A DNA stretch of 64,000 nucleotides, taken from positions 558,001 to 622,000 of the forward strand of contig KV748188.1 of NCBI GenBank assembly GCA_001692895.1. The letters run 5' to 3'. This DNA comes from Cenococcum geophilum 1.58 (Eukaryota > Ascomycota > Dothideomycetes > Gloniales > Gloniaceae). Shown piece by piece: positions 22,077-50,535 of the stretch. How positions within the stretch are numbered: position 1 is the first letter of the stretch; the number at the start of each line of letters is the position of its first letter. The notes beneath the pieces were generated by a model that did no database searches, was not told the origin of the DNA, and saw only the letters and a program-made list of their open reading frames with translations. The position numbers were made by a program, and so were the translations under genes.

Positions 22077-22084
22077 TATCTTTT
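22077..22084. repeat. Target-site duplication, left copy (TATCTTTT)
   Basis: TATCTTTT here is repeated at 50460-50467, directly outside the right inverted repeat of the last MULE copy. Eight to ten base pairs is the usual target duplication for MULEs. It flanks the whole 28.4-kb array, not each copy. Confidence 0.88.
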
Positions 22085-22219
22085 GGTCAACAATAATCAT
22101 ACACCCCCCAAATGATACGCGTACACCCCCTAACTAATATATATACACCCCCGTCTAAACAGGCTTAGATCCTGCCTATTCAGGTTAGAACATCACGTGA
22201 ATTTAACTTATTTGCATCT
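22085..22219 (+). repeat. Left terminal inverted repeat of the MULE array
   Basis: About 135 bp, matching the inverse of 50325-50459 with only a handful of mismatches. It contains three TACACCCCC motifs starting at 22100, 22122 and 22144, exactly 22 bp apart. It is clearly less RIP-mutated than the internal TIRs. A cluster of GCGCGC motifs follows at about 22225-22255, on the left side only. Confidence 0.92.
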
Positions 22220-23623
22220 GCATCAGCGCGCGTCAGCGCGCAATTAACGCGCGCCTATACCTAAAACATTACCTCGCATTTACCCTACCTTTTCCTACCC
22301 CCGTTAAAGCTGTACGACTCTGTAGGGCTTGCCCTTAATGATATCTATAAGTTCGTTAAAGGGCAAGGCTATATGGTGTTAGTTTTCCGTTTAAAAACTA
22401 ACAAGTAAGTGCTACGGGCTGTGCGCAAGATATGGCTTTAGTATGCTAAAGGAAATAACTATACTAAAACTGCTAGGAAGCGGCTAACTAGCTCTTATAT
22501 AACCAGCTACCCCTTTACCCTTACACTTACTCGTATAGTAATTAGGTAGTAGGTAGAAGTATAAAATCCTACTTATAACTACTAGGCGTTTACCTATACT
22601 AGAGCTCTACTATATTACTAATAGCGTACTAAGGAGATAAAGAAGACAATTACTAATATATCGGCTAGTAGTATTAACCTAAGCAAAATACTTACAAATC
22701 TACTTAAGAAGGATATTATAATTAGCATCTAAGATATTTATAATAAATAGTAAGCAAATAAGAAGAAGCTACTTAGTAGGCTTTCCTTTATATAAGTATT
22801 ACTTAAGGCTCTTAACAAATACGGAGGCGGTAACCCTAAATTAAAATACTACTTCGCGTATAAGGAAGATAATTACAATTACGTTAAATACTTATTCTTT
22901 ACTTACTTAGAGTCTTTTAAGTATTTTTAAAAGAATCCTAATATTCTATTAATTAATTACACCTATAAAATAAATAAATTTAAGATACCTTTTCTACACG
23001 CTATAGGAGTTAGTAATACTAGGTAAAACTTTAAGCTTACTTATTACTTTCTACTAGGTAAAATAAAAGCCGATTATAACTTTGTAATTTAATAGATCTA
23101 TCTTCTTTACTACCAATATAATGTTACTCTAAAGGTTATAATTACTAATAAGGAATTAGCTCTTAAGAACGCATTATATATATACTTCCCTTTAGTACCT
23201 TAACTCCTCTACCTATAGCATATCGCTAAAAACGTTCTTACGTATATATAGGATAACTAGGTAGTAAGGGCAGATTAATTAAATAAGGGAAATAAGAACG
23301 CGTAGGAGTACTATAATAACTTTATAAAGCGCTAGGTTAATTACTATAGCTAAAAGTCCTTAGAGAAGTTTACTATAGCCTAATACTAGCTTATAAAGGA
23401 CTACTATAATTAAAAGCGGCTTACTAACTACTTATACGATAAGTAGTAGCTATATAGGAGGGCGTTCGTGACTTACTATACTAATATTTAGATACACTTC
23501 GGAAATTAATAAGTAAAAAGTTATACTATATAAAGCATCCACGCAAGTTAATACGCCTTTAAAACACTATAACGCCTTAAAATATCTTTAAGCCCCTTTT
23601 AGAGCCTTAAGATCTATATATTT

Positions 23624-23628
23624 AAAAG
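23624..23628. repeat. 5-bp TSD of the gypsy insertion, left (AAAAG)
   Basis: AAAAG precedes the left LTR and recurs at 31598-31602 after the right LTR. The uninterrupted MULE copies have a single AAAAG at this point. Confidence 0.92.
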
Positions 23629-24048
23629 TGTAACGGAACCTTATAGCAGGAACTACGGTAGATTCGTTAATAGGCCGGGTGTGTAGGTAATACAGGAAGT
23701 CAATAATAAAGTAATAATTAGTGGAGTAGTTGCCTAACAGATTAACTCTAATTATATTCTAAGAATTATTACAAAAAAGGAACTATCTAGGTAGGGACTA
23801 AGGGTCCTTAAATATATAACTATACCCCTATAAAATCCTTCTTATATATAATGTACGTATTATACGTAAGGTACGTAAGTTCCTCTCATTCCTCTTATTT
23901 AATACGTAGCATGCCATATAACCTTACTTACCATTCTTCGTTATATAGTTCCACTAGTTTTATCCTAAACCGTGCTTATATTAACCAACTGGCTTCTTCT
24001 AACTCCTCTCCTAGTAGTTATAATATTGTACTTAAAGCGTCTGTAATA
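23629..24048 (-). repeat. 3' LTR of the gypsy element in MULE copy 1
   Basis: 420 nt, the same length as 31178-31597 and aligned to it without gaps by eye. It starts TGTAACGG on the plus strand, and the purine-rich tract lies next to its inner end. Confidence 0.93.
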
Positions 24049-27000
24049 CTATCTCCCTTCTTTTTATCTTTGTCCTTAAAGATACCTAGTATCTCTAGGT
24101 TGTTTACTAGAGGTATAATATCTATCTAATTAATTTAGTTAATATTGTTACTTATTATACCTAAAGCCTCTTCTTCTTTACACGCGTAACGTTGTGCTCG
24201 TACTATTACCGCGATATTATCTCTTAGTGAGATAATACCATCTCTATATTCTTGTTATGCGAAAGAGGGGTTAGTTTGCATTACGCTAGCAAGTCCTTTA
24301 TTTTAGCAACCCTCTTTATATTTAGAGTGCACTAAAGCAAATATTTAATTATTTTGCGATGTTCGCTCTACCTTTAACGCTAAATATACGCGTCCTATTA
24401 CTCTTAATAGTCTTTAAGTACCCTTATTAATTGCTGCTAGGGTTTTAGGTTTAATCTGCTACTACAAAGCTTAATAGTAACCTGGCGTAGGCCCTTACTA
24501 AGCTTAAGTATTCTTATAATGCGGAACAGAAGGCCCTAGATACTCGCATCGCGGCGTTTACCCGTCTTCTTTATCTTAAGAAAGTTTATAAGAAGGTACG
24601 TTCTAAAAAGTAGAAACTTATAGAGTAAGGTTTACAGGAACTTAGCGATAAAAGAATGGATTTTCTTCTAATAGTAAAGGAAACAACTCTAAGTAGTTCG
24701 GCAATCGTTTTTCCTAGGTCCCCCTTAGGTAACTTATTCTTTAGCGATTCTTTTTTATTAATACTACCTAACATTCTCTCTTCCGATACTCCTATACCTT
24801 TCCTATAACGTTCTTTAAATTTTTTAGTGGCTCTTAGGTAGTCTTATTATAGCCTATCCACTTTACTTCGTACTATATTTTATTGTCTATGTCCTCGTAA
24901 CTAACGATCTTTAAAACTTACTATTTATCTTTTTCTTGCCCTCTATATGTGTCTACCTCGTAAACTAGTGGCTTAATATTCCTATATACTGGCTCTAGCA
25001 TCGTAATGTGCTGTATAGGGTAGATCTTTATTTTAGCTAGTAGGTTTAACTTAAACGTAACCGGTGAAATTCTTTTTATAATTTTAAAAGGTCCTAGTCT
25101 AACATAGTCTAACTTCTTACTTAGTTGTTAACTCTTAAAATTTTTATATAGTAGCTATACTTTATCCCCCTCCTTAAGATCTAGTCCCTTAGATCTCTTA
25201 GCGTTATAGTACTTTTTTATTCTTTGCCGTACTACCTTTACTATATCCGTAAGGTTTATATAAAGATTTATTAATATCTCTATTCTTTACTTAGCTGTGC
25301 TACTCGTTTTCTTTACTTATTATAGTAATAACGATATTCTTAGCTCGTATCTATAATTCGCCTTAAATAGTAATATGCCCATTTCTTCTTAAGGTGTCGT
25401 ATTGTATGCGAACTATATAACTAGTAATAATAATACCTAATTGTTCTATGCATAATTAATATAATACCTTAGATACTACTCTAGTATCTAATTTAATTTT
25501 TCTATTTAACCGTCTGTCTATAAATAATATACAGTAGAAGTTGCTACTCAAACTCCTTATTCCGCTAAGAATACCTCCTAAAATACTGCTATAAATCTTA
25601 AATCTCTATCCAATATAATTTTACTCGGTACTCTATACCTTATAAATACTTCTTTAACGTAAATTCTAGCGATATCTTTCGCTAAGATTTCTTCCATATA
25701 TACTATAAAGTATTCCTACTTTATTAGCTTGTCTACTATTACTAAAATTACGTCGTAATTTTATCCGGTAATAGGATCTCTTAATTTTAGTAACTTTACA
25801 ATAAAGTTCTATAATATAACCTCCCATAGTCTCTCTGGTATTTTAATAGGTTATAGCCCTCCGTATAGCTTATGCCTTATTAATTTATTTCTTTAGCAAT
25901 CTAGATATTCCTTAGTAACTTATCTTACTAGTCCCCAGATTCTATTAATAATATACTTCTCCTAAAGTCTTAACACTAAGCCTATAGCTCTATTATATTC
26001 TTAAGTTAGTCCCTTATAAAATAACTTAATAAACTCTTTTATAATATTTCTCGGCACGTATATAGCTTCTCGGTTCTTATATTACTCTAAGTTTAAATCC
26101 TCTACCTATATATTTTAGATTTTTTATAACTATACACTCTCTAGTACCTTATAGGTCTAACTAATTTCTCTTATTACTATAATCTTTAGATAATTATATC
26201 TAATTAATCCGTCTATATCTTTTCGCAGTAAAGCCCCTAATGGCTTTTCATTATTCTATAGTTTAGCTTTTTTACTTAGAGTGTCTACTTATGCATTATC
26301 TATACCCTTAGTATACTAAATCTTAAAATGGTATTCTATAAGTATTTCTGCCTATCTAACTTATCTCTAGTTAAGTTCTTTAGTTATTAAAAACCCCGTT
26401 AGGTTCTTATAATCCATCTTAACTATAAATAGTTTTTTTTATACCTTATAAGAATACTCTCTATTCCTAAAGTACTATAACTATACCTAATAACTCCTTA
26501 TTATAGATGTTATAGTTTAGTTCCGGTAGTATTATCTTCTAACTATAATATGCTACTAGGTGCCATCTATCCTTATATTTCTATAGAAAGTACGCCCCTA
26601 ATACAAAGTCTAATATATTCGTTTCAACTACTATCTCTAGCTTTAGTTAGTAGATTTTAAGGATTAGGTCCTAAGTAAACAACTCCTTAACCTCCTTAAA
26701 TAGTTTCCTTTATTCTTCTCCCTATACCTAAGGTTTTTCTTTCTTTATTAACCTTATAAACGGCTTAATATTTTTTAACTATTGAGCTATAAACCTTTTA
26801 TAGTAATTATAAAACCCTAGGAATAATTTTAATTACGTAACGTTCTCTTGTTCTTACTAATTTACTATAGCCTTAATCTTCTTTAGATCTATACTAAGTT
26901 AGCCTAGTTTAATAATAAATCTAATAAAATCTGTCTTCCTAGTAAAGAACTTATATTTTTTAATTGCTACTAATATCTGTTCTTTATATAGTCTTTTTAA

Positions 27001-30000
27001 GACCTATTTAACGTGTTCTCCATACTCCTCCTTACTTATTAAGTAGATAATAATAATATTAAGGTATACTATAACAAATTTATCTAAGTGTTTTTTTAAT
27101 ATATTATTAATACGCTTCTAGAACGTTGCTAGTGCATTTATAAGCCCGAACTGTATTACTAATAGTTTATATAGTCCTTCCTTTAACCTAAAGGCTGCCT
27201 TTTATTCGTCGCCTTCCTTAATTCTAATTTAATGGTACGCCTATCTTAGATCTATCTTTGTAAAGATTTGCGCATTACTAATCCTGTCTTAAATTTCGCT
27301 AATTAAGGGTAAAGGATACCTATCCTTTCTAGTAATACTATTTAACTATCTATAGTTGATGTATAGCCTAAGTTTCCCGTTTTTCTTTAGTACGAATAGT
27401 ACTGGATAACCCGCTAATAACTATAATGGTCTAATGTATCCCTTTTATAAGTTCTCCTAGATAAACTCTTTTAATGCTCTCCCTTCTTCTTTAGTAAGCT
27501 TATAGATTGGAAAAAACCTTAGACTTATTCCTAGTTCTAATTCTATCTTATAATCCTATACTGCGTACTTTAACAGCTTCTTACTTTCTAGTAACTATAG
27601 TTTCTTGCCGTACTTATGGTATCTCTTTAGTACGTAGCTTAGTTCTTTTTCTATTTCTTTATAGGTCGCCCCTACTTAGTACTATACCATCTTAGCTTAT
27701 TATTATATCTTACGGCGTTAAGTATCTCTAATATTAACCTAACCTATAACCCAATTAATCTTTAGATTATATTCCTATAACTAAGGCATTTCTAACACTG
27801 CCTTATTATTCCCTAATAGTAATATATTAAAAGACATCTCGATTTATCTCCCTTTAATAGTTAACTAAATAGGTCCTATTTTAAGATTAATAATACCTCC
27901 TTTATAGGCTATTAGATCTCCTAAAATTGTAACTAGCGGATATAGGTGCTCTTTTTACCTATATAGTTCCTTATTACTCTACTATCTATTAATGCTTTAA
28001 ACTGTTAATCTTACCATTTAACTTATAAATTTAGGTATTATTCTTAAATTCCTTTAAGGGTCTAAGGCTCTACTACTAGCTCCCTCTAGTTTTATAGGCC
28101 TCTACTTTTCCTAACTATTAGCTGCTAGATCCTAGTGTACTTAACTTATTCTTTAGCTAATGCCTAGTTCGCTTCTTTTCCTTAATATATTATAGACACG
28201 TGTTTTCTAGGCATTCCTATTACTATCGTCCGTCTAAGTATTCTTCCGTAAGGAATTTTCCTGGTTAAAGTATTAAATCTCCTAATTTTTAAACTTTTAC
28301 TAGATGCTAGCCGTGTATATACTTAGTATTCCTATACTGTTGCTTATTTGGCGCCTAATATATCCTTATAGGGTATTTCCGGTTCTTTTCTTTTGAATTT
28401 TTGTATATCTTATATATATTATCTATACATACAATCTATAATAGCGTATAGTACGCTAGGTGCTTTAGGTTAACTCTTAACTCGTTTTTATTCTTAAGTT
28501 TAAACCTTTATCGTGTTAATCTAAATATTGCGACTTTATTCGCAGGTACTAAAATATATCTCTTACTTTTTTAGTCCTCTAATTATTCCTTTAAATCCTT
28601 TAATATTATAATTAAGGCTCCCTTAATATAATTTATTGCTTTCTCCGTAATCGGGTAGTTTTAGATAACTCTCTCGTCTAACCATATATAGAAATCTTCC
28701 TACTTGTTATTATATCTTTACCTATACCACTTTTAATATAGCTACTAGAGTATATACGGCTTATCCATAAGGAAGTATCTTCTTATTACTATATTGTAAC
28801 AGCCCTTTATATACCGTTCCTTAAACTAGGTTAGAATCCCTAAATCCTCTTTATTTTCTAGTTCGGTAAGCCACTTAGCTCTTAGCGTGCCTACTTTTAG
28901 CCTATTAGTAATTCTTTATACTAATGCTTTATCTCGTATATAACCTAATATACTAAATCTTATATCTAGTTCTTTTTATTACTATATAAGGATTCTAGTC
29001 CTAAACTTATCTATAGTCTCTTATAGTTTACGTCTTATAACTAAATCCTTAAAGTTTTTCTACTTCTTAATTATAGTATTAGCTTTCTAATCTTTAGTCT
29101 AAACACTATATTCTACTAGTAAGTCCTCTAAGTTTATATATCTATCTCCTAGCCTAATTGCTATTTATACTATAGATTCTCTAATTTATAGCGAAGCTAT
29201 TTACTTCTTACCTATAGGTGTCCTTATTTGTACTTCAAATTCTTAGTTCCTTAGATTCTTTAATCCTAAGCTTGCTTTTTTCTTAAGCTGTGCTTTAGCC
29301 TTAGTTTAACTAGGCTTAACTAGTGTTCTTATCTTATCTTAAGAGTCTTAAATCTTACTTATCTTATCTTAAGAGTCTTATGCCTTTAGGAAACTTCGTC
29401 CTGAGCTTATTTATATATTACTAAACTAAGCTATTGCTCTACTCCCTCGGTTGTCGTCCGTTATGGGTCCTTAAGCGTGCCTTATCTTGTTTTAAGAATC
29501 TTAGTTATCTCTTATCTCGTCTTAAGAATCTTAAGCCTATAGCCTTTTGCCTTTATTAAGTGGTAAGCTAGCACTAGCAGTCGTTTACTTGCTTAATTAT
29601 CTCTAAATATTACTCCTTTCGTCTTATAAAGTAATGGATGCTATATCTAATAGTGTTATAATGCCCGTTACTGAACCTTGCTCTATAGCGGTTTTAATCT
29701 CTACTTTTATTGCGTTATTAAGGTTTAGATACCCCTAGTTAGTTCCTTTTTCTTCCTTATCGCTATTAATTAATAAGTACTTTAACTCTATTATTATTGT
29801 TACTAATCTTTATCCGCACGTTACTATAACATCTTAATTTAGCTCGTAGAGTCGATCTTATTCTTTATCTAACTTTGTAGTTCCTTTAAGTCCTCTTAAC
29901 TCTAGCTCTTATGGCTAATAGCTTGCACTATACTTGGCATCTTTATAAATTTAGTATGCGTTGTTATAATAAAACGCAAAACTTTTAATTAAACACTCTT

Positions 30001-30986
30001 TTGTTCCTTATAGTGCACTATCGTTTCTCTATACGTGTGTATTATATACTATTAGTCTAATTCCCTTTACTACGTAGTAACTCTAACCACTTCTATAGTC
30101 TCTAGCGAAATAACCCTATTTTTTACAATTTGTATAAGCTCCGTCTTTAAACTATTATTTTTACTATGGAGTCCACTTAAATATCTTCTGCTAGTAAGAT
30201 CTTTGGTTTAGCCTATACTTCTTAGTCTTATAATTACTTAATCTTTAACTTCTAGGTTTCTATAGTTGCTTTCCCTATCTCTTATAGGTTTCTCTAGTAC
30301 CGCTTAGGTCTATTAGCTCTACGCTATACTATAGTTTCTAATTTAGCTTTAGTCATTGCGTACTCTACGCCTTATATAACTATAAAACTCTATCCTAACT
30401 TCTCTTAGCCTGTTCCCTTTAGAAGATCCTATTATTAATTTTAATCGCTTAATCTATTAATTCCCTAAAGGTATCCGCATCTTCTATTAAAATAATTACG
30501 TTCTAGACTTTAGCCTTAAGTCCCTATTTATACTATACTATAAGCGCCCTATTATTCTATTCGACCTATATAGCAAGTATTTAAAACTGCGTTATGTACT
30601 TAATTACTAAGGTTCGCTATATTAAGTCCTAAAGCCTTCTTTTTACTATTATTGTCGCTTCTAGGTCCCTAAATATCTATATTAATTATTCCGCGAATCC
30701 TACCTAACTAGAAAATACAAATTATACGTCTTAATTAGCAGTAGTCATTCCATTAGTCTATATTTCCGTTAAGTAGGGTTTAAACCATTTAAGTGCCCTT
30801 CCTGTTAAAAATAGTCCTACATAGGCTATCTAATCCATTAACGTGGCTAACTTAGCCCCTTTTTGCATGACTTTAAAATGCATTTGCGTAAGGAATCCCT
30901 TAAGCTTTAACTTCTCTTCTAAGAATTATTTAATTAAAGGTAACTTAACCTTTACTACTCCAATTCCATTAAGTCTTTCTTTAAGT

Positions 30987-31034
30987 ANTTAGTTNTTNTN
31001 NTTTAACCNATTAANNATTTCCTNTANCTNNCNA
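30987..31034. other. Cluster of ambiguous bases (N)
   Basis: Around 15 N characters are scattered over roughly 48 bp inside the gag region of the gypsy element. They mark unresolved consensus between similar repeat copies, so the assembly here may be a merge. A single N also occurs at about 42582 in an LTR of the copia element. Confidence 0.95.
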
Positions 31035-31177
31035 ACCGTAACTAGTTATAAGTTAGTATCTTATATACTTATATCTCTACTTAACCTTAAAGTAGTTGCT
31101 GCTATTAATGGCGTTATAGTGGCTGCTTTTAGTGGCATATTGTTTAACTTCTAAGACTATAATCTTAGTAGTAATTA

Positions 31178-31597
31178 TATAACGGAACCTTATAGCAGAA
31201 ACTACGGTAAATTCGTTAATAGGCTGGGTGTGTAGGTAATGCAGGAAGTCAACAATAAAGTAATAACTAGTGGAGTAGTTGCCTAATAGATTAACTCTAA
31301 TTATATTCTAAGAATTACTACAAGGAAGGAACTATCTAGGTAGGGACTAAGGGTCCTTAAATATATAACTATACCCCTATAAAATCCTTCTTGTACGTAA
31401 TATACGTATTATATATAAGGTACGTAAGTTCCTCTCATTCCTCTCGTTTAATACGTAGCATGCTATATAACCTCGCTTACTATTCTTCGTTATATGGTTC
31501 CACTAGTTCTATCCTAGACCGTGCTTATATTAACCAACTGGCTTCTTCTAACTCCTCTCCTAGTAGTTGTAATATTGTACTTAAAGCGTCCGTAACA
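31178..31597 (-). repeat. 5' LTR of the gypsy element in MULE copy 1
   Basis: 420 nt, pairing with 23629-24048. It ends ..GTAACA on the plus strand, followed immediately by the AAAAG target duplication and the continuing MULE copy. Confidence 0.93.
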
Positions 31598-32827
31598 AAA
31601 AGCGCCTCCGCTATTTATATTACTAAAAATTTATTATAGTTAAAGCTTACTGTAGTTGCGCTAATAGGCGTAGATAAAGCCACTAGTTCTTTATTTCTTA
31701 GCTAACTAAAATTACTTCTCCTAGTATTATATTGCGACTTAAGGGCGCCTATACTAGATTAAAAGCCTTCCTTTAGGTATCTACTGGTAACTTATTTAAT
31801 ATAGTTAGGAATATTAAAAACCTTATTAAGAATAAGATAAATAACTATATAATAACCCTAGTAAAGTACCAAGACCGCCTACTATATAACGTTTACGAGC
31901 CGGAGTTTAACAATATCCTATATAAAGTAACGCCTTAGTGCCTTTACTACCTTAAGGCCTAACTAAAGCTTATAAAGTCTCCTAACTACTAGCCAATCTA
32001 TAGTAGCGCCTAGACCGCAGTATACGGCCTCCTATATTACTATATACTCTACCAGCAGCTACACTAAAGCGCCACCTCTATACTTAAGATTTAGCTTACC
32101 AAAATTAATAAACACTAGTAGTTTAATCGCCTTTAATTAAATCCTCCTCCTAGCCTACCTATTAATCCTCTACTCCGTATTTAAGAGCCTATAATTATTA
32201 AGCGCCGCTATAGCCGCCTAGCTAGCTCTATAAATATAAATCGCATTAATACCTTAACTTGTTATAAGCTATTAGCATTTAAACGAAATACTAAATATAC
32301 TAGGCGCGGGCATAAATGTAAGTATAGACGTACCCGTGGAGGTAGTTCGCAGGCGTTAAGTAGAGGTAGTAGCACCTAAGTTAGCTTACGCGGTGCCTTA
32401 TAGGCCACTATATAATCTATTTAATTAACTTAAGAGTAAGTTAGTAGTATTATAGGTTGTAAGAATAGTGGTAAGGATAGTAGTAAAAGTTAAGATGCTA
32501 CTACAGATAACTTACCTAGTATTAGCGGTAGTATTTAATAGGCTTTTAGGGGTCTTGGGGCTTTAGCCTTTTAAAAGGATTTTACTAAGGGGTCCTTTAG
32601 TATATTCCAAATTTAACTTAAAATCTACTAGTTATACTATAGTTTAAATTAAGACTTAATTATAGTGTTGCAGTTATAAAAGTTATATTTTAACACTTTA
32701 ATTTTCGTAAGGGAGATGTAAATAAGTTAAATTTATATAATATTCTAACCTAAATAGGTAAAATCTAAGCCTATTTAAACTAGGGGTGTATATATATTAT
32801 TTAGGGGGTATATAATTATTATTAACC

Positions 32828-32832
32828 TATCT
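32828..32832. repeat. MULE array junction 1, linker TATCT
   Basis: The right TIR of copy 1 (..ATTAACC) and the left TIR of copy 2 (AGTTAACAATAAT..) are separated by TATCT, which equals the first five bases of the outer TSD TATCTTTT. Confidence 0.88.
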
Positions 32833-35601: not shown

Positions 35602-35606
35602 TATCT
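35602..35606. repeat. MULE array junction 2, linker TATCT
   Basis: The same 5-bp linker as junction 1, between ..ATTAACC and AGTTAATAATAAT.., although the TIR on its left lost two 22-bp units. Confidence 0.88.
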
Positions 35607-36345
35607 AGTTAATAATAATTATACACCCCCCAAATAATATGCGTATACCCCCTAACTTATATATATACACCCCTATCTAAACAGGCTTAGATTCTACCTA
35701 TTTAGGTTAAAACATTACGTAAATTTAACTTATTTATATCTGCATTAGCGCGCATTAGCGCGCAATTAACGCACGCCTATACCTAAAACATTACCTCGTA
35801 TTTACCCTACCTTTCCCTACACTAACTATAGCTCTTAACCTACCCCTATTAAAGCTATACAACTCTATAGGGCTTACCCTTAATAATATCCATAAGTTCG
35901 TTAAAGGGTAAGGCTATATAGTATTAGTTTTCTGTTTAAAAACTAATAAGTAAGTACTACCGGCTATGCGCAAGATATGGCTTTAGTATACTAAAGAAAA
36001 TAACTATACTAAAACTACTAAGAAGCGGCTAACTAGCTCTCGTATAACTAGCTACCCTTTTACCCTTATACTTACTTATATAGTAATTAGGTAGTAAGTA
36101 GAAGTATAAAATCCTACTTATAACCACTAAGCATTTACCTATACTAGAGCTCTACCGCATTACTAATAGCGTACTAAGGAGATAAAAAAGACAATTACTA
36201 ATATATCGGCTAGTAGTATTAACCTAAGCAAAATACTTATAAATCTACTTAAGAAGGACATTATAATTAGCATTTAAGATATCTATAATAAACGGCAAGT
36301 AAATAAGAAGAAGCTATTTAGTAGGCTTTTCTTTATATAAGTATT

Positions 36346-36613: not shown

Positions 36614-37559
36614 CTAATTAGTAAGCGCGCACAGATCAGCAATTACTTAATACCTCCCCCTAAGCGATATACACGACAGCAACCACCCGTTTAGACTCCT
36701 GGTACGACCTACTAAAAGGTTAGAAGTTAGGGATTATGGACTTATCTCTAACCCTATATACTTATTTAAGTCTTAATACAGTTTACTAGAAGTTATAAAC
36801 ACAAATACAGACCTATACGGAACCCCTATCCTTAACCCCCTTAAACCTTAAACCTCTTCGGACCTTTTACGGAAACCTCTTACCCTTCTATAAACTATTA
36901 TGGACCCGTTAATTAATTTTACGGACCGTTATAAGACCTCCCCCACCCGTTATAAGCTGCTACCACCCACTACGCACTATACTACACTATAGTATAGCAG
37001 ACATTAGTAAGCAAGTTAGCAAAGGTTAAAAGAAGTAAAGATAAGGAGTTAATGTTACGTCTATAAATAATATCAATAACTATATTAGTTTTAAAATCCT
37101 TAAATATAAACACTTTAAGCTTATAAATAATGACCTATAGGAGTAATACCAGGAAGACTTTGCGGACTTTATGGAAGCTATTCTTAAGGCCTATAACCCT
37201 ATTACTATCCGTAAACTATAAACCCTTTTACGTAACTAAGGTATATAGGTTAAAAAAATAAATAAGTTACTATTATACAGTCCTTATATAATATAATACA
37301 TAAAAAGGACTAAATAGAATAGACTAAAGAGGAAATCCTAGACTAGTTCTAAGAAACTAAGAAACTCTTTACTTCTTTTAAACTTAATATAATCGCTAGC
37401 CTTATACCTAACCTACTTAACCAAATTTATCTTATAAACCTAAGCAGCTTTAGACTTAACCTTATTGGCTAAAATATACCCTACTCTTAAGTTATAAATT
37501 ATAATACCCCTATAAACCAAAATACGGACTAAATTACCCCTACTATTTAAGTCATAAAT

Positions 37560-37649
37560 CTATAAGCTATATATCTATAAGCTATATATCTATAAGCTAT
37601 AAATCTATAAGCTATATATCTATAAGCTATAAATCTATAAGTTACAGAT
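37560..37649. repeat. 15-bp tandem repeat, six units, in copia gag
   Basis: Six consecutive 15-bp units CTATAAGCTATAWAT, the last degenerate (CTATAAGTTACAGAT). The period is a multiple of three, so the array stays in frame and would add a pentapeptide per unit. This looks like replication slippage within the element. Confidence 0.93.
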
Positions 37650-40600
37650 CCGTAACCTACCTAAGTAAAGACCTATAGTAAGGAGCTAGCTAACCTAGCC
37701 AAGCTCTATATTAACGAATCTAAGTATAGCGGTAAAAATAATAATTTTAACTTTAAACTAACTATCTTTATGGACCTCTGCTAGAAGGCTAATATTCCTA
37801 AATAAGAGTTTAGCTAAGCCTACTCTACTATACTACGCGGCCTAGTACTTAACCACTACTACACCAACCTTAAGAGTAACCCCCTTAGTGTCCCCTTTAA
37901 TAAGCTATATAAAGCTACTTATAACTACTTTAAAGGACCGGAATATAGGCATAATATCCTTACCTAATAGAATGCGACTAAGCTACGGACTGTAATTAAC
38001 AAGAATACCGAAAAATCGACTATAAAGTGTCTGCAAATCCTTATTAAAGACCTCTAGCATCTATAGCACGGCCTTAACGCCAAGCTTTGAACAGATGACT
38101 TCCTATATAATAAACTTATTACGGCTTACTAGGAAGTAGAGCCCTATAAGTACACCTATTATAAGCCTATAGACACCTTAGCTGGCCTTATTAATGACCT
38201 ATACTCCTCTATTATAATGTATGAAGTCTTAAACCCACCGGGCAGCACTTAAGCCTTCGCTATAGATATTTAATATCCGCAAATAAACTTAGACGTCCAC
38301 TTTACAAACCGCTGTTACCACTAACAGCACCTATACCGACCAAGTCCTACCCATAACCCCTATAGCAACTCCTATATAAAAGCATACCCCCGCAAATAAA
38401 TAAGCCAGAAATGCTTTGTGTGTGGTAAGGAAGGATGTTAGTCTATAAGGTATACCTAGGAAAAACGCGACAGGTCTAAGAAGAGATTTAATAAATAGAT
38501 TAGCCAGTTTATCTTAGAATATAAAGGAAAGGAAAAAGAGGAGCCCCCTAATAAGTTAATAGAAGCCCTTATAATTAACTTTAACCTAAATAACTAGGAA
38601 TAAGAGACCCCAGAGACGTTTCTAACTACTTTTAGACCTTTTACGGATAGTTAAGCCTTTAATATTACGACTATATTAGCTAACCGTTCCTTTATACACT
38701 TAGTTACGCCCAAAAACTATTCTATAAGTACCCCTGTTATAGACGTTATAGATTATAAGCAGGACCTATTTGCATATATCACTATAGAACGCTATACCCC
38801 TAAGGAATTCTATAGTGTTATAATCGATATAGGCGCTTCTAAGAAGTCTACTGCAGGCTACGGACAATACCTTATATATAGGACTACCGTAAATAATAAT
38901 ACAGACATTAATATTACGCAAACTAGGGCCGTAAACGTCTAATTCGGCATTAGCTTAACTGTATTAATTAAATTAGTTACAGTTAAGACCCCAATTAGCC
39001 TAGTTAACTTCTATATAGTAAAAGCAGACACCCCTTTCTTACTTTGCCTTGCGGATATAGATAGGTTATAGGTTTACTATAACAATATTACGGATACCTT
39101 AATCGGCCCTATAACTGCCCTAGAAAGCAAGTATATTACTCTGCCAATTACATAACAATTTAGACACCCGTTCCTTATATAGGGAGAGACTTTATAAACC
39201 TACATTTAGGAATCTTTTAACTATAACCTGTACTACCTTACTAGTACGGAGATCCACCGTCTATACCGCTATTTCAGCTACCCGTTAGCCGAAAAGCTAT
39301 ATAGAGTCCTTAAACGCTCTAGATATGATAACGTTAATAGAAAGGCAGTTAATTACCTAACTAAATACTACTCCTTTTGCCAGAAATACGGACGTTCCCT
39401 AGGCCGATTTAAGTTTACCCTTTATAAGGACCTTAACTTTAACTACTTAGTATACGTAGACATTATATATATTAACGGCAGCCTAGTATTATATATAATT
39501 AATAAGGCAACCTACTACTAAGCCGCCCGTTAGTTGCAAAATATATCTATAAAGTATACTTGGGATATTTTACGGACCTACTGGATTAATACATATATTA
39601 GACCTCCTGAGTATATCACCTATAACGCCGGTAGGAACTTTATTAGTAAGGAATTTTAGCAGTATACTATAGCCATGGCTATATTAACAAAAGCTATTCT
39701 AGTTAAGGCGTATTAGTCCGTTAGGCTTATTAAACGAGCTTATCTAGCTCTATAAAGAGCTTATTAGATTATTACGGATAAGTATAAGGACATCTAAAAG
39801 GAACTAGCTTTATAGATGGCTATAAAAGCCGTTAATAACACCACTAGCCCTAACGGACTAGTACCTACCCTTTTGGTTTATAGAGCCTACCTAAGGATAA
39901 GCAACCTAGGCCCCCCTACTTTATCTATTATAGAACGAGTAGCTATAATACGGAAGGTAATAGCTAAAATAGTTAAATTACGGGCTAAATAAACTATTAA
40001 TAACGCCTTATACTACCGTAACGGACCTAATATAACCTTAGTATATAACCTCCCGCTTAACTCTAAAGTCCTTATATAGCGTAAAAGCGGTAGTTAGAAT
40101 AGACCTTACTGTCTACTAGCCGTAGAAAACGAGATATACTATATATAGCTTCCTAGCGGACTAACTAGCTTTAGAAGCACGTCTATAAAACCCTACTTTT
40201 GGCCTGAAAACACCTATGACGTTAAGCCAGACAAACTAGAAGCAACTGCTAAACTAGATAAACTAGAAACTACTACTAAATTAAATAAACTAGAGGCACC
40301 CTTACCTACCCTAGAGGTCCCCTAGAAACCTACTAAATCTACTAAACCTACCGTAAAGCGTGGCCAAGGACACCCCTATAAGAATTCCGTAACGGAGAAC
40401 TACTTAACCTCTATAGGCACATCTATAAAGCAATCTCCGCCTACAGATATATTAGTTCTAGTATAGGAAACCCCTTTTACGGACTTACGGCGTAAAGAGA
40501 TTAACGAACTACTTAAAAAGGGTGTCTTTATAATTATAACGGAGAGAGACGTTCCGTAAGGCGTCTATATATTTAACTTACGCTTTATTAATAAGATTAA

Positions 40601-42477
40601 GTACCCTAGTACTAATAAAGCCTTTAAGAAATTAAGGCTTATTATATAAGCTTATAACAACTAGGGAAAGGACCTAGTTCTTACGCAATCGCCTATAATT
40701 TAATGGGTTAGTTAACGGATTATACTCGCACTTATACCTAGACTATAGCAAACTAAATCCGTAGCCCTTTACTTATAAAATATCTCATAAGCCTATATGC
40801 AGTCTAATACCTACCTAAGTAAGGATATCTTTATACGACCACCCTATAAGCTTAACCTATAACTAGGAATAATTTTATAGGTTATAAAACCTCTTTACAA
40901 AGTACTAAAAGCCGGAAACTATTAGTTTAAGATATACTACTAGCACTACGTTAGTAAACTTAAAATAGAATAGTTAACCTATAACCCCTACCTCCTATAT
41001 AGCCCATTAAACGGCCTTAGTATTATTAGACTCTAAATAAACAATACCCTCTTTTTAGCAGACCGGATATTTGCGGATGCTAAAGAGACTAAACTATAAA
41101 AAGCTAAGTTCCTAGTAAAGCCATAAGAGTAGTTAACTAAGTAGACTCCAATTAAGTTTAACGGAGGCTTAATTATATAAAAGGGTAACTTAATCTAGCT
41201 AACCTAGGAACGCTAGGCTTAAAACCTAAAGCTTATTATAGCAAAGCCTATAGACCTTACTAGTTCCCGTAAAAAGACCCGTAAAACCGTAAATATAAAG
41301 GACTAATACGCTATATAGCGTGTAAGAGGCGCCTATATTGCTATAGTCTGCTAACCCAAATCTGCCTATAACTTATCCTTTACGGCCTAAGCAGTAGATC
41401 CATAAAAAGAAAATATTAAGTAGCTTAATAAGCGTATTTAGTGGCAAATTAACAATATAGTAAGGGGACTTACTTTTATACCACTAGACCTAAGTTTCCT
41501 TAGCTTACTAGCATTTACGGACGCCTCCTTTGCTAATAATAAAGACCTATTATTATAAATTGGCTTTATAATTGTACTTATAAACTATAATTAGGACGCA
41601 AATATACTATACTAGTCTTTAATTAAGTGTAAATGAGTAATCTGTAGTATACTAGCTTTTAAACTATATACACTAGCTTATGGATTTAATATAGCAGCCG
41701 CAATTAAATTAACGGTCTAGAAGATTCTATAACTAGAGTAGTTACCCCTGGTTTTATATACTGATTTAAAGTCCCTTTACAACTGCCTAGTTAAACTAGG
41801 TATAATATAAGAGAAGAGGCTTATAGTCGACCTAATGTGCTTACATTAGGCCTATAAATGATATAAGATTACGGAGGTTAAATAAATTAGCAGCGGAGAT
41901 AACTTAATAGACGCCATAACTAAGGCAAAGCTATATTAAGCCCTTAAAACCCTAATTAATACGAATAAGCTTAACCTAAAAGTTATAAAATAGGTAGAAT
42001 GGGACTAACAAAGTACCTATGGTACGCCTACGGCCCGTTAGAAGGCTGTACGGCTTATTATATAGCCTATTCTACGGACCGTAAGCTATTAGGTAGAAAA
42101 ACGGTGGAAAGCTATAATAAAACTTAGTGGACTTACATAACCTGCCGAATTCTGCTATATTCTACTATAGTGGTTAAATTAACTAATTACAATTTTCTAT
42201 GCTGGGTATAGAAAATCGCCATTAGCTTACTTAGCATTAGCGCCTTAGCGGCCCTTAAAATCTAACTTATAGCTCGTCTACTACCCGTTAAAAGGCTGTA
42301 CGGTTTATTTTACGGACCGTAAGTAGGACTTACGGCTAGCTTAAGGTACCGTTTAGAAGGCAACCTAGACGGCACCTTAGGGGAGATTTCCTATATATTT
42401 TCCTTTATATTCTATAGTTTTATTAAAGCAATTACGGAGGCTGTATATAGGTGGTTTCATTTTTTAAGTACTGCTAG

Positions 42478-42745
42478 TGTATAATTATAGCACCTGTTAT
42501 ACTAAACGCGTGCTTACGCGTTCGGTACACCAGGTACGCGTTTACGCGTTTAGTGCACCAACCACTCGCTTACGCGTCTGGNGCACTTATAAAGCACTAA
42601 CTAATTAGGGGGGAGGTGTATTAGTATATAGACCACGTAGTCTGCTTTATATAATCGACAGTCACCATCCAAATAAGTATACGATACTATATGTATTTCG
42701 TGCCCGTGGATATGACTTACTCGTGCTATTAAGTTAGTACGAATA
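42478..42745 (+). repeat. 3' LTR of the copia element
   Basis: 268 nt, equal in length to 36346-36613. It is followed directly by the target duplication GTATT and then by MULE transposase sequence. Confidence 0.92.
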
Positions 42746-44822
42746 GTATTACTTAAGGCTCTTAATAAACACGGAGGCAATAACCCTAAATTAAAATACT
42801 ACTTCGCGCATAAGGAAGACAATTATAATTGCGTTAAATACTTATTCTTTACTTACCTAGAGTCTCTTAAGTATTTCTAAAAGAATCCTAATATTTTATT
42901 AATTAATTACACCTATAAAACAAATAAATTTAAGATACCTTTTCTATACGCTATAAGAGTTAGTAATACTAGGCAGAACTTTAAGCTTATTTATTACTTT
43001 CTACTAGGTAAAATAGAAGCCGATTATAACTTTACAATTTAATAAATCTATCTTCTCTACTGCTAATATAATATTACTCTAAAGGTTATAATTACTAATA
43101 AGGAATTAGCTTTTAAAAACGCATTACGTATATACTTCCCTTTAGTACCTTAACTCCTTTACCTATAGCACGTTGCTAAGAATATTCTTACGTATATATA
43201 GGATAACTAGGTAGTAAGGGTAGATTAATTAAATAAGGGAAATAAGAACGCGTAGGAGTACTATAATAACTTTATAAAGCGCTAGGTTAATTACTATAGC
43301 TAAAAGTCCTTAAAGAAGTTTACTATAGCCTAGCACTAGCTTATAGAGGACTATTATAATTAAGAGCGGCTTACTAACTACTTATATAACAAGTAGTAGC
43401 TATATAAGAGGGCGTTTATAACTTACTATACTAATATTTAAATTCACTTTGGAAATTAATAAGTAAAAATTTGTACTATATAAAGCATCCGCGTAAGTTA
43501 ATACGCCTTTAGAACACTATAACGCCTTAAGATATCTTTAAGCCCCTTTTAGAGCCTCAAGATCTATATATTTAAAAGCGCCTCCGCTATTTATATTACT
43601 AAAATTTATTATAGTTAAAGCTTACCGTAGTTGCGCTAATAGGCGTAAATAAAGCCACTAGTTCTTTATTTTTTAGCTAACTAAAATTACTTCTCCTAGT
43701 ATTATATCGCGATTTAAGGGTACCTATACTAAATTAAAAGCCTTCCTTTAAGTATTTACCGGCGACTTATTTAATATAGTTAGGAATATTAAAAACCTTA
43801 TTAAGAATAAGATAAATAACTATATAATAACCCTAGTAAAGCACTAAAACTACTTACCGCATAACATTCGCGAGCTGGAGTTTAACAATATCCTATATAA
43901 AGTAATGCCTTAGTGCCTCTACTACCTTAAGGCCTAACTAAAGCTTATAAAGTCTCCTAACTACTAGCCAATCTATAGTGGCGCCTAGACCGCAGTATAT
44001 AGCCTCCTATACTACTATATACTTTACTAGCAGCTATACTAAAGCGCTACCTCCGTACTTAAGATTTAGCTTACTAAAATTAATAAACACTAGTAGTTTA
44101 ATCGCCCTTAATTAAATCCTCCTTTTAGCCCACCTATTAATCCTCTACTCTATATTTAAGAGCCTATAATTATTAAGCGCCGCTATAACTACCTAGCTAG
44201 CTCTATAAATATAAATTATATTAATACCTTAACTCGTTATAAGCTATTAACATTTAAACAAAATACTAGATATACTAGGCGCGAGCGTAAATATAGGCGC
44301 GGGCGTGCCTATAGAGGTAGTTCGCAGGCGTTAAGCAAAGGTAGTAGTACCTAAGTTAGCTTACGTGGTGCCTTATAGGCCACTATATAATCTAATTAAT
44401 TAACTTAAGAGTAAGTTAGTAGTATTATAGGTTATAAAAATAGTGGTAAGGATAGTAGTAAAAGTTAAGATACTACTATAGATAACTTGCCTAGTATTAG
44501 CGGTAGTATTTAATAGGCTTTTAGGGGTCTTGGGGCTTTAGCCTTTTAGAAGGATTTTATTAAGGGGTCCTTTAGTACATTTTAAATTTAACTTAAAGTC
44601 TACTAGTTATACTATAGTTTAAATTAAGACTTAATTATAGTGTTACAGTTATAAAAGTTATATTTTAATACTTTAATTTTTGTAAAGGAGATATAAATAA
44701 GTTAAATTTACGTAATGTTTTGACCTAAATAGGTAAAATCTAAGCCTATTTAGACCAGGGGTATATATATTAGTTAGAGGGTGTACGCGTATTATTTAGG
44801 GGGTATATAATTATTATTAACC

Positions 44823-44827
44823 TATCT
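44823..44827. repeat. MULE array junction 3, linker TATCT
   Basis: TATCT between full-length TIRs of copies 3 and 4. Confidence 0.88.
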
Positions 44828-47640
44828 AGTTAATAATAATTATACACCCCCTAAATAATACGCGTATACCCCCTAACTAATATATATACACCCCCGTCTA
44901 AATAGGCTTAAATTTTACCTATTTAGGTTAGAATATTACGTAAATTTAACTTATTTATATCTGCATTAGCGCGCGTTAGCGTGTAATTAACGCGCGCCTA
45001 TACCTAAAACATTACCTTATATTTGCCCTACCTTTTTCTATACTAACCATAGCTTTTAACCCACCCCTATTAAAGCTATACAACTCTATAGGGCTTGCCC
45101 TTAATAATATCTATAAGTTTATTAAAGGGCAAGGCTATACAGTATTAGTTTTCCATTTAAAAACTAATAAATAAGTATTACTAGCTATACGTAAGATATG
45201 GCTTTGGTATACTAAAGGAAATAACTATACTAAGACTACTAGAAAGCGGCTAACTAGCTCTTATATAACTAGCTACCCCTTTACCCTTACACTTACTTAT
45301 ATAGTAATTAGGTAGTAGATAAAAGTATAAGATCCTACTTATAACTACTAGGCGTTTACCTATACTAGAGCTCTATCGCATTACTAACAGCGTACTAAGG
45401 AGATAAAGAAGATAATTACTAATATATTGGCTAGTAGTATTAACCTAAGCAAAATACTTATAAATCTACTTAAGAAGGACATTATAATTAGCATCTAAGA
45501 TATCTATAACAAACGGTAAGCAAACAAGAAGAAGCTACTTAGTGGGCTTTCCTCTATATAAGTATTACTTAAGGCTCTTAATAAACACGAAGGCAATAAC
45601 CCTAAATTAAAATACTACTTCGCGTATAAGGAAGACGATTGTAATCGCATTAAATACTTATTCTTTACTTACCTAAAGTCTTTTAAGTATTTCTAAAAGA
45701 ATCCTAATATTTTATTAATTAATTATACCTATAAAATAAACAAATTTAAGATGCCTTTTCTACACGCCGTAGGAGTTAGCAATACTAGGCAGAACTTTAA
45801 GCTTACTTATTACTTTTTACCGGGTAAAACAGAAGCCGATTATAACTTCGCAATTTAATAAATCTATCTTCTTTACTACCAATATAATATTACTCTAAAG
45901 GTTATAATTACTAATAAGGAATTAGCTCTTAAGAACGCATTATATATATACTTCCCTTTAGTACCTTAACTTCTCTACTTATAGTACGTCGCCAAAAACG
46001 TTCTTATGCATATATAGAATAACTAAGTAGTAAGGGTAGATTAATTAAATAAGGGAAACAAGAACGCGTAGGAGCACTATAATAACTTTATAAAGCGCTA
46101 GGTTAATTACTATAGCTAAAAATCCTTAGAGAAGTTTACTATAGCCTAGCACTAGCTTATAAAGGACTACTATAATTAAGAGCGGCTTACTAACTACTTA
46201 CGTAACGAGTAGTAGCCATATAAGAGGGCGTTTATAACTTACTATACTAATATTTAGATATACTTTGGAAATTAGTAAATAAAAAGTTGTACTATATAAA
46301 GCATCCGCGCAAGTTAATACACCTTTAGAATACTATAACGCCTTAAGATATCTTTAAGCCCCTTTTAGAGCCTCAAGATCTATATATTTAAAAGCGCCTT
46401 CGCTATTTATATTACTAAAATTTATTATAGTTAAAGCTTACCATAGTTACGCTAATAGGCGTAAATAAAGCCACTAGTTTTTTATTTATTAGCTAACTAA
46501 AATTACTTCTCCTAGTATTATATTACGACTTAAGGGCGCCTATACTAGATTAAAAGCCTTCCTTTAAGTATTTACCGGCGACTTATTTAACGTAGTTAAG
46601 AATATTAAAAACCTTATTAAAAACGAGATAAATAACTATATAATAACCCTAGTAAAGCACCGAGACTACCTACTATATAATATTCACAAGCCGGAGTTTA
46701 ACGATATCCTATATAAAGTAATACCTTAGTACCTCTGCTACCTTAAGGCCTAACTAAAGCTTATAAAGTTTCCTAACTACTAGCCAATTTATAACGGCGC
46801 TTAGACCACAGTATACGGCCTCCTATACTACTATATACTCTACTAGCAGCTGCACTAAAGCGCTACCTCCGTACTTAAGATTTAGCTTACTAAAATTAAT
46901 AAACACTAGTAGTTTAATTGCCCTTAATTAAATCCTCCTTTTAGCCTACCTATTAATCCTCTACTCTATATTTAAGAGCCTATAATTATTAAGCGCTGCT
47001 ATAGCTACCTAGCTAGCTCTATAAATATAAATCGCATTAATACCTTAACTTTTTATAAGCTATTAGCATTTAAATAAAATACTAAATACACTAGGCGCGG
47101 GTATAAATATAGGCGTAGGCGTGCCCGTAGAGGCAGTTTGCAGGTATTAAGCAGAGATAGTAGCACCTAAGTTAGCTTACGCAGTGCCTTATAGGCAACT
47201 ACGCAATCTAATTAATTAACTTAGGAGTAAGTTAATAGTATTATAGGTTATAAGAATAGTAGTAAGGATAGTAGTAAAAGTTAAAATACTATTACAGATA
47301 ACTTACCTAGTATTAGCAGTAATATTTAATAGGCTTATAGGGGTCTTAGGGCTTTAGCCTTTTAGGAGGATTTTACTTAGGGGTCCTTTAGTACATTTTA
47401 AATTTAACTTAAAGTTTACTAGTTATACTATAGTTTAAATTAAAACTTAATTATAGTATTGCAGTTACAAAAGTTATATTTTAACACTTTAATTTTCGTA
47501 AGGGAGATGTAAATAAGTTAAATTTATATAATATTCTAACCTAAATAGGTATAATCTAAGCCTATTTAAACCAGGGGTGTATATATATTAGTTAGGGGGT
47601 ATACGCGTATTATTTAGGGGGTATATAATTATTATTAACC
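44828..47640 (+). mobile_element. MULE copy 4
   Basis: An uninterrupted 2813-bp unit with both TIRs carrying three 22-bp motif units. The transposase region is about 45.05-47.2 kb, with the catalytic core at about 45.7-46.0 kb (TYKINKFKMPFLHAVGVSNT; ITNKELALKNALYIYFP). It is heavily RIP-mutated. Confidence 0.9.
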
Positions 47641-47645
47641 TATTT
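47641..47645. repeat. MULE array junction 4, linker TATTT
   Basis: TATTT, a C-to-T variant of the TATCT linker at the other three junctions. Confidence 0.85.
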
Positions 47646-50459
47646 AGTTAACAATAATTATACACCCCCTAAATAATACGCGTATACCCCCTAACTAATA
47701 TATATACACCCCTGGTTTAAATAGGCTTAGATTATACCTATTTAGGTTAGAATATTATATAAATTTAACTTATTTGCATCTGCATTAGCGTGCATTAGTA
47801 TATAATTAACGCGCGCCTATACCTAAAACATTACCTTGTATTTACCCTACCTTTCCCTATACTAACTATAGCTCTTAACCCACCCCTATTAAAGCTATAT
47901 AACTCTATAGGGCTTACCCTTAATAATATCTACGAGTTCGTTAAAGGGTAAGGCTATATAGTATTAGTTTTCCGTTTAAAAACTAATAAGTAAGTACTAC
48001 TAGCTATACGTAAAATATAGCTTTAGTATACTAAAGGAAATAACTATACTAAGACTGCTAGGAAGCGGCTAACTAGCTCTCGTATAACCAGCTACCTCTT
48101 TACCCTTATACTTACTTATATAGTAATTAGGTAGTAGGTAGAAGTATAGAATCCTACTTATAACTACTAGACGTTTACCTATACTAGAGCTTTACCGTAT
48201 TACTAATAACGTACTAAGGAGATAAAGAAGATAATTGCTAATATATTGGCTAGTAGTCTTAACCTAAGCAAAATACTTATAAATCTACTTAAGAAGGACA
48301 TTATAATTAGCATCTAAAATATTTATAATAAACGGCAAGCAAATAAAAAGAAGCTGCTTAGTAAGCTTTCCTCTATATAAGCATTACTTAAGGCTTTTAA
48401 TAAATACGGAGGTGATGACCCTAAATTAAAATACTACTTTGCGTATAAGGAAGACGATCGCGATCGCGTTAAATACTTATTTTTTACTTACCTAAAGTCT
48501 CTTAAGTATTTCTAAAAGAATCCTAACGTTCTATTAATTAATTGCACCTATAAAATAAATAAATTTAAGATGCCTTTTCTACATGCCGTAGGAGTTAGTA
48601 ATACTAGGTAAAACTTTAAGCTTACTTATTACTTTCTACTAGATAAAATAGAAGCCGATTATAACTTTATAATTTAATAGATCTATCTTCTTTACTACCA
48701 ATATAATATTACTCTAAAGGTTATAATTACTAATAAGAAATTAGCTCTTAAGAACGCATTACGTATATACTTCCCTTTAATACCTTAACTCCTCTACCTA
48801 TAGCACGTTACTAAGAACGTTTTTATATATATATAGGATAACTAGGTAGTAAGGGCAAATTAATTAAATAAGGGAAATAAGAATATATAAAAGTACTATA
48901 ATAACTTTATAAAGCGCTAGGTTAATTACTATAGCTAAAAGTCCTTAGAAAAGTTTACTATAGCCTAGTACTAGCTTATAGAGGACTACTATAATTAAGA
49001 GCGGCTTACTAACTACTTACGTAATAAGTAGTGGCTATATAGGAGGGCGTTTATAACTTACTATACTAATATTTAGATACACTTCGGAAATTAGTAAATA
49101 AAAAGTCGCACTATATAAAGTATCCGCGTAAGTTAATACGCCTTTAGAACACTATAACGCCTTAAAATATCTTTAAGCCCCTTTTAAAGCCTTAAGATCT
49201 ATACATTTAAAAGCGCCTCCACTATTTATATTACTAAAATTTATTATAGTTAAAGCTCACTATAGTTACGCTAATAGGCGCAGATAAAGCCACTAGTTCT
49301 TTATTTCTTAGCTAACTAAAATTACTTCTTTTAGTATTATATTACGACTTAAGGGCGCCTATACTAGATTAAAAGCCTTCCTTTAGGTATCTACCGGCAA
49401 CTTATTTAACGTAGTTAGGAATATTAAAAACCTTATTAAGAATAAGATAAATAACTATATAATAACTCTAGTAAAGTACTAAAACCGCCTACTGCATAAC
49501 GTTTGTAAGCTAAAGTTTAACAATATCCTATATAAAGTAACTCCTTAATACCTCCGCCACCTTAAGGCCTAACTAAAGCTTATAAAGTCTCCTAACTACT
49601 AGCCAATTTATAGCAGCGCCTAGACCACAGTATACGGCCTCCTATACTACTACACACTCTACTAGCAGCTGCACTAAAGCGCTACCTCCGTACTTAATAT
49701 TTAGCTTACCAAAATTAATAAACACTAGTAGTTTAATCGCCCTTAATTAGATCCTCCTCTTAGCCCACCTATTAATCCTCTACTCCGTATTTAAGAGTCT
49801 ATAATTATTAAGCGCCGCTATAGCCGCCTAGCTGGCTCTATAAATATAAATTATATTAATACCTTAACTCGTTATAAGCCATTAGCATTTAAATAAAATA
49901 CTAGATATACTAGGCGTGGGTATAAATATAGGCGCGGGCGTACCTATAGAGGTAGTTCGCAGGCGTTAAGCAAAGGTAGTATTACCTAAATTAGCTTACG
50001 CGGTGCCTTATAGACCACTATATAATCTAATTAATTAACTTAAAAGCAAGTTAGTAGTATTATAGGTCGTAAGAATAGTAGTAAGGATAGTAGTAAAAGT
50101 TAAGATGCTACTACAGATAACTTGCCTAGTATTGGCGGTAGTATTTAACAGGCTTTTAGGGGTCTTGGGGCTTTAGCCTTTCAGGAGGATTTTACTAAGG
50201 GGTCCTTTAGTGCATTCCAAATTTAACTTAAAGTCTACTAGTTGTACTATAGTTCAAATTAAGACTTAATTATAGTGTTACAGTTACAAAAGTTACATTT
50301 TAACACTTTAATTTTTGTAAGGGAGATGCAAACAAGTCAAATTCACGTGATGTTCTAACCTAAACAGGCAGCATCTAAGCCTGTTTAGACCGGGGGTGTA
50401 TGCATATTAGTTAGGGGGTGTACGCGTATCATTTGGGGGGTGTATGATTATTGTTGACC
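47646..50459 (+). mobile_element. MULE copy 5
   Basis: An uninterrupted 2814-bp unit. The transposase core lies at about 48.53-48.84 kb and the basic, Arg/Gly-rich C-terminus near 49.9 kb. The last ~300-400 bp, including the right TIR 50325-50459, are visibly less AT-shifted than the same part of copies 1-4. Confidence 0.9.
50325..50459 (-). repeat. Right terminal inverted repeat of the MULE array
   Basis: About 135 bp, the inverse of 22085-22219, ending ..ATTATTGTTGACC. It carries three GGGGGTGTA motifs at 22-bp spacing. The TSD TATCTTTT follows at 50460-50467. Confidence 0.92.
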
Positions 50460-50467
50460 TATCTTTT
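50460..50467. repeat. Target-site duplication, right copy (TATCTTTT)
   Basis: Matches 22077-22084. It is followed by TAGG, so the pre-insertion site read TATCTTTTTAG, a perfect-looking 3' splice acceptor, only ~70 bp before the first conserved NLR codons. Confidence 0.88.
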
Positions 50468-50535
50468 TAGGCCGTCCTCCGTATGCTTCTTCAGCTCTAT
50501 TTCGCTTAGCCTACTACTCTCTTTATGGCGACAAC

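Follow-up and report, generated by a model that had tools for sequence, protein, structure and literature searches.

Circle junctions of the bacterial transposon IS256 carry spacers of 5, 6, 7 or 19 bp, and those formed by ISCth4 in vitro carry spacers of 6-8 bp; in both cases the spacer derives from the flank of the recipient end, and the target duplications are A/T-rich and 8 bp long (accessible parts of PMC7780238). Mutator-type elements of prokaryotes form circles that contain 6-10 bp from one flank, and circles have also been observed for the maize elements Mu1 and Mu1.7 and for the alpha3 MULE of K. lactis (accessible parts of PMC3942029). For the arrays of Bari1, a rolling-circle origin has been proposed (excerpts of PMC8834629 and PMC9659126), and a figure legend in PMC12628747 presents the insertion of multiple copies at one site as a source of transposon tandems.

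Tandem arrays of TIR transposons such as Bari1 and circles or dimers in the bacterial relatives are already known. Tandem dimers of IS256, in particular, are reportedly named in the title of a paper. Such junctions bear on how Mu-type elements gain copies while retaining the donor, and on whether circles are intermediates or by-products. Here, we describe an array of five MULE copies in the genome of Cenococcum geophilum 1.58, whose founding junction we tentatively attribute, at somewhat less than even confidence, to strand transfer by the transposase in the copy-out manner of IS256, followed by quick amplification on site and decay.

Structure of the array

The sequence examined is the window, a stretch of 64,000 nucleotides (contig C13, 558001-622000), within its own genome of 177 Mb in 162 contigs. 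The region 22085-50459 of the window comprises five head-to-tail units of the same element. Re-checking of the coordinates bore out the number and orientation of the copies given in the original prediction, with one match to the domain PF10551 per unit. The features are as follows; units lie on the plus strand and the other features carry no strand.

22077-22084, no strand, left outer target-site duplication TATCTTTT
22085-32827, plus strand, unit 1, a MULE copy lengthened by an insertion; MULE domain at 22946-23233
23631-31595, no strand, insertion in unit 1; terminal repeats 23631-24046 and 31180-31595, 93.5% identical
32828-32832, no strand, linker TATCT of junction 1
32833-35601, plus strand, unit 2; right TIR short by about 44 bp; MULE domain at 33714-33980
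35602-35606, no strand, linker TATCT of junction 2
35607-44822, plus strand, unit 3, a MULE copy lengthened by an insertion; MULE domain at 42896-43183
36346-42744, no strand, insertion in unit 3 with direct terminal repeats
44823-44827, no strand, linker TATCT of junction 3
44828-47640, plus strand, unit 4; MULE domain at 45712-45975
47641-47645, no strand, linker TATTT of junction 4
47499-47787, no strand, junction-4 palindrome of two 141-nt TIR arms, 96% complementary, with a 7-nt spacer
47646-50459, plus strand, unit 5; MULE domain at 48528-48818
50460-50467, no strand, right outer target-site duplication TATCTTTT

The 8-bp sequence TATCTTTT occurs once on each side of the whole array and only there, as had been claimed. 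At each of the four inner junctions a right TIR is followed by TATCT (by TATTT at junction 4) and then by a left TIR, and these junctions were found again at the positions first noted for them. The linker was originally said to equal the first five bases of the outer duplication, and it is indeed identical to exactly the five flank bases that abut the right end of the array. By chance, such an identity between linker and flank has a probability of 0.0013 under the flank composition or 0.0025 under the target-site composition; two random 5-mers of target-site composition would be identical with a probability of 0.02. The inner left ends start with AGTTAA as against GGTCAA at the outer left end, a difference that is accounted for by a G-to-A change at TpG, the last T of the linker being the preceding base, and a C-to-T change at CpA. 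The linker is therefore 5 bp long and the TIR is complete; allowing for these two RIP-type changes, both TIR ends are complete at the junctions.

These ends bear on the idea that an excised linear element with five one-sided flank bases was circularised by host repair, recombined into a sister copy and amplified. End joining usually trims or adds bases. At this locus both TIR ends are whole and only one flank is represented, so that we regard an origin by end joining as improbable, although the same product would be expected and circles of eukaryotic MULEs have been reported (accessible parts of PMC3942029).

By its PF10551 match, the array element is classed as a MULE. The match in unit 5 reaches 1.3e-10 and 42 bits against a cut-off of 27.6 (Pfam, stops read as X), and the five matches in the array, all of which contain stops, belong to 79 genome-wide; a single frame of unit 4 searched in Pfam matched no family. 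Units free of insertions measure 2769 bp (unit 2), 2813 bp (unit 4) and 2814 bp (unit 5), and units 1 and 3 are lengthened by one insertion apiece. By their structure, namely direct terminal repeats, both insertions appear to be of LTR type; in unit 3, a self-alignment that includes slight flank pairs 36328-36616 with 42455-42748 at 91.2% identity. The label LTR retrotransposon is taken from these repeats, since the three open frames of the insertions (one in unit 1, two in unit 3) matched no Pfam family. Each insertion is confined to a single unit, and both therefore postdate the amplification. Fourteen N letters lie within the insertions, 13 scattered over 30988-31033 and one at 42582, as singles or pairs and not as a gap run.

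Dispersed copies, target sites and neighbourhood

The TIR-end pattern was detected at 29 places in the genome, six of them within the array. The search for single copies with duplications of their own, suggested at the outset, yielded 14 dispersed copies with two ends (nine short and five long, the ends of the long ones placed by eye from the alignment), of which 11 are flanked by an exact 8-bp duplication, one by a 9-bp duplication and two by none, while a 5-bp duplication was seen in 0/14. This set excludes the C29 copy (right end unmatched), the C8 copy (only its left piece was used), one-ended pattern matches and, among the matches listed, more distant copies of 70-80% identity. Together with the 141-nt TIR arms, these duplications agree with the assignment to the MULEs, which are characterised by long TIRs and target duplications of 8-11 bp. 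The 12 target duplications are 95% AT.

With AT-rich 8-bp duplications at the dispersed copies, TATCT is neither the element end nor a normal duplication. We accordingly rejected the linker as part of the element end, as dispersed copies lack TATCT, and as a 5-bp target duplication from serial insertion. The same duplications can be held against a double insertion, in which a second copy would have entered beside the first at ACCTATCT (the last three TIR bases plus TATCT), with ACCACC at the outer right end then shortened to ACC and unequal exchange thereafter. Several copies inserting at one site is a published route to tandems, reportedly set out by McGurk and Barbash in 2018, and the contraction needed is of a common kind, 3-bp tandem contractions being frequent mutations. 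However, ACCTATCT is only 62% AT compared with the 95% of the other family duplications, the outer right end is without the extra ACC, and insertion into the very same site would predict an 8-bp linker, whereas the linker between the copies is 5 bp and not the full duplication. We judge a double insertion to be improbable as well.

A junction pattern with 0-30 bp between TIRs, RIP-type changes allowed, was found at four genomic places, all in the array, and its reversed control at none. A broader TIR-core pattern returned the same four junctions and four places without these TIR ends (three in its control). TIR-TATCT-TIR junctions at unrelated sites had been named beforehand as evidence against the proposed history; neither pattern revealed a further junction in the 177-Mb genome, at zero mismatches, a setting which decayed junctions could escape.

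Elsewhere in the genome, a second same-strand MULE pair lies at C12:1107-1116 kb (L074:1-8295); its members are 84% identical and belong to another family. Unit A of this pair has a 10-bp duplication CCTTATCCTA (by eye), and the two units are separated by about 390 bp of different DNA, which looks mariner-like by eye. Owing to the intervening DNA and to the duplication of unit A, we read the pair as two separate insertions and not as a second array, although no 8-bp duplication was seen around unit B. Another same-strand pair of MULE domains, 9.5 kb apart, is present on C21.

The 36 bp that end at the array (22049-22084) match the tips of a family of short inverted-repeat elements, whose tip pairs are about 175-185 bp apart on C78, C25, C27, C7, C2 and C67. 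Three alignments of the left flank to such tips score 35/36, 34/36 and 34/36 and continue through one TATCTTTT-like stretch; on the right flank the same three score only 13/20, 10/20 and 10/20, so that support for an empty site is limited to the left side. The MULE seems, from these alignments, to have landed in or beside an inverted-repeat tip. None of the candidates scored in the flank searches was an empty paralogue of the complete site.

Directly to the right of the array, 50461-53907 contains an NLR-like gene with a PNP_UDP_1 domain (5e-15), followed by frames that resemble NB-ARC and TPR regions by eye. A search with the first 700 bp gave another 25 genomic matches, of which some are fragments of a single place. 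At 50485-50540 the sequence is continuous, and related places on C28 and C54 have about 76-77 extra bases; one reading of these is an intron absent at this locus. On the left side, 18621-20012 holds a frame with a run of repeated STVYGPSST units, and these repeats are also traversed by further open frames on both strands.

Ancestry of the units and order of events

Identity between units, compared in pairs, is 89.9-92.9%, with 187-271 transitions versus 6-12 transversions; comparison of array units with the seven related dispersed copies, of which two are partial, gave 16-31 transversions. All five units share three fixed transversions, which are absent from each dispersed copy with a letter at the position. 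The five-unit alignment and tree proposed initially placed the units in one clade apart from the seven dispersed copies: in the RY-coded tree, calculated without the TIRs, this clade has an ultrafast bootstrap of 87, its internal branches are near zero and no grouping inside the array exceeds a support of 62. The nucleotide tree supports the array clade at 100 and joins units 2 and 5 at 91, a grouping which we attribute to RIP homoplasy. Twenty RY-variable columns have a letter in every unit, and each of these columns is a singleton (20/20); the deletions in the TIRs and at 215-237 are private to single units. Because transversion differences are all singletons and deletions private, one copy gave rise to all five units in a time that was short relative to the age of the array. 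The array-fixed transversions occur in 0/7 of the related dispersed copies, and among these copies no onward movement from this junction was seen.

Derived C-to-T changes are concentrated at CpA (504/890 cells, 57%), as expected for RIP, followed by CpG (339/1110, 31%), CpT (170/2340, 7%) and CpC (45/980, 5%). The CpG excess may be due to deamination of methylated C. At the left ends, 9/35 CpA/TpG sites are derived in the outer unit 1 and 91/140 in the other four units; at the right ends, 4/29 are derived in the outer unit 5 and 74/100 in the other four. The p-values for this comparison treat cells as independent though the units share ancestry, and are indicative only. Decay drops at the two outer ends of the array and persists at the eight inner ends. 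The dispersed copies show mixed decay at their own ends, with values for the first 150 and last 154 columns of 0.26/0.10 (C74), 0.43/0.56 (C12), 0.66/0.10 (C60), 0.43/0.24 (C25) and 0.14/0.45 (C11), and values for the first 150 columns only in C29 (0.30) and C8 (0.21).

On this evidence the array was one contiguous block when RIP-like decay acted, since the level of decay varies with place along the array. The events can be put in order because the decay dealt with all five units as a single repeat block. Contiguity before decay also argues against an assembly or scaffolding artefact in which dispersed copies were falsely joined. The N letters might be taken as a sign of such an error, but they fall inside the insertions and none at a junction; moreover, the units form their own clade, their decay tracks array position, and they differ at 7-10% of sites and are hence distinguishable. 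We consider an artefact extremely improbable. Serial insertion of already mutated copies was also dismissed, given the decay gradient and the common ancestry.

At 297 CpA sites that vary among twelve copies, some pairs of units agree more than in a stratified shuffle (z 1.7 to 5.2). The first 400 bp, in which units 2-5 resemble one another but not unit 1, contribute part of this excess. Ahead of the final round of amplification, units may already have shared some decay or conversion.

Each junction is a palindrome of two TIRs, with arm differences of 20/126, 24/104, 16/146 and 9/149 at junctions 1 to 4. The left TIR of unit 5 carries right-TIR features, namely an extra G and a transversion otherwise present only in the right TIR of unit 4, from which it differs at 9/149 positions as against 11-21 from the other left TIRs. 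This suggests that, after the decay, it was copied across the junction-4 palindrome by conversion. About 22 bp are missing from the right TIR of unit 1 and about 44 bp from that of unit 2.

The history originally predicted, with one insertion, one founding junction and subsequent amplification, fits the tests made and is in our view very probable, the evidence being the singleton transversions, the lack of any other junction in the searches and the completion of the array before decay.

Origin of the junction and comparison with known systems

How the junction arose was left open by the original prediction and is narrowed by the linker from the right flank, the 8-bp duplications of single copies, the singleton differences and the completeness of the array before decay. 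A model has to yield a linker of the five right-abutting bases, keep both outer 8-bp duplications and leave the TIR ends whole. Reinsertion into the same target or recombination between the duplications gives an 8-bp linker, and a further loss of 3 bp is therefore required; insertion at ACCTATCT gives a 5-bp linker with an extra ACC at the outer right end, and again 3 bp must be lost. IS256-type transfer would yield the observed structure without this loss.

A tandem duplication made by the host, through recombination or template switching between the 8-bp duplications and the loss of three T's before amplification, would likewise derive the linker from the local duplication, would take the lost bases from a run of T's and would call for no unusual transposase chemistry. 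Its prediction is nevertheless 8 bp, which is found at 0/4 junctions, and the additional 3-bp deletion would have to fall there before amplification; we think this origin unlikely.

The copy-out reading that we tentatively prefer would start with a single MULE insertion into TATCTTTT. By asymmetric strand transfer, the left end would be joined to the flank five bases past the right end of the same element or of a sister copy after replication, producing a right-TIR, TATCT, left-TIR junction in a circle or a tandem dimer. The circle would recombine with the resident copy, or the dimer would stay in place, with the outer 8-bp duplications retained. The unit of element plus TATCT would then reach five copies quickly, either through unequal exchange between sisters or through insertion of circles, repeatedly or as multimers. 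Afterwards, RIP-like mutation would have spread over the whole array, units 1 and 3 would have received their insertions, and small deletions and one conversion would have affected the junction palindromes. From the structure, the single ancestry, the order of events and the match of the linker to the right-abutting flank, all of which are observed, we infer the strand-transfer chemistry and the mode of amplification.

TATCT represents bases of one flank at a TIR-TIR junction, as copy-out predicts; rival origins arrive at this linker too, given a loss of 3 bp. Against copy-out stand the missing onward insertion among the seven dispersed copies, the single founding junction, which provides the spacer length without replication, and the stops in all five PF10551 matches. 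Judging by its title, a paper by Liu and Wessler from 2017 is said to liken MULE transposition to hAT, Transib and V(D)J recombination, which would speak for cut-and-paste in a eukaryotic MULE. The array may be the fossil of a circle-type copying step, seldom observed among eukaryotic transposons. The more specific interpretation, that a eukaryotic MULE transposase left it behind through asymmetric strand transfer of the IS256 type and that the spacer records the attack of one end on the flank beside the other, is possible though less likely than not. If true, MULEs would have a copy-out route beside cut-and-paste, which would bear on how Mu elements multiply without loss of the donor. A junction frozen in the chromosome inside its donor site further predicts that spacers in MULE circles or dimers are about 5-8 bp long and come from one flank only.

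In a literature search that covered mostly papers outside subscription, the accessible texts described no MULE array with a flank-derived linker, and the apparent novelty lies in a MULE array with a linker that can be recognised as flank of the donor. With the MULEs (PF10551) the element shares the transposase domain, the 141-bp TIR arms and AT-rich 8-bp duplications in most single copies examined; unlike in typical MULEs, five copies stand under one outer duplication, fused by 5-bp linkers. Bari1 of Drosophila melanogaster (Tc1-mariner) likewise forms head-to-tail arrays of a TIR transposon in which a single junction defect recurs, but its arrays have about 80 and 6 copies, each copy lacks the first two bases, the superfamily is another, and the excerpts of PMC8834629 and PMC9659126 make no mention of a donor-flank linker. 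In the SaTar clusters of guayule and rice, MULEs also stand in line without nesting and circular intermediates are discussed, whereas, in the accessible part of PMC5907723, the clustered elements are unrelated and tied to microsatellites, with no target-derived linkers joining one family. Like the array, the IS256 family (IS256, ISCth4) combines transposases similar to those of MULEs, TIR-spacer-TIR junctions with bases from one flank and AT-rich 8-bp duplications (accessible parts of PMC7780238 and PMC3942029); its members, however, are bacterial, active and variable in their spacers, in contrast to the decayed five-unit array with one spacer described here.
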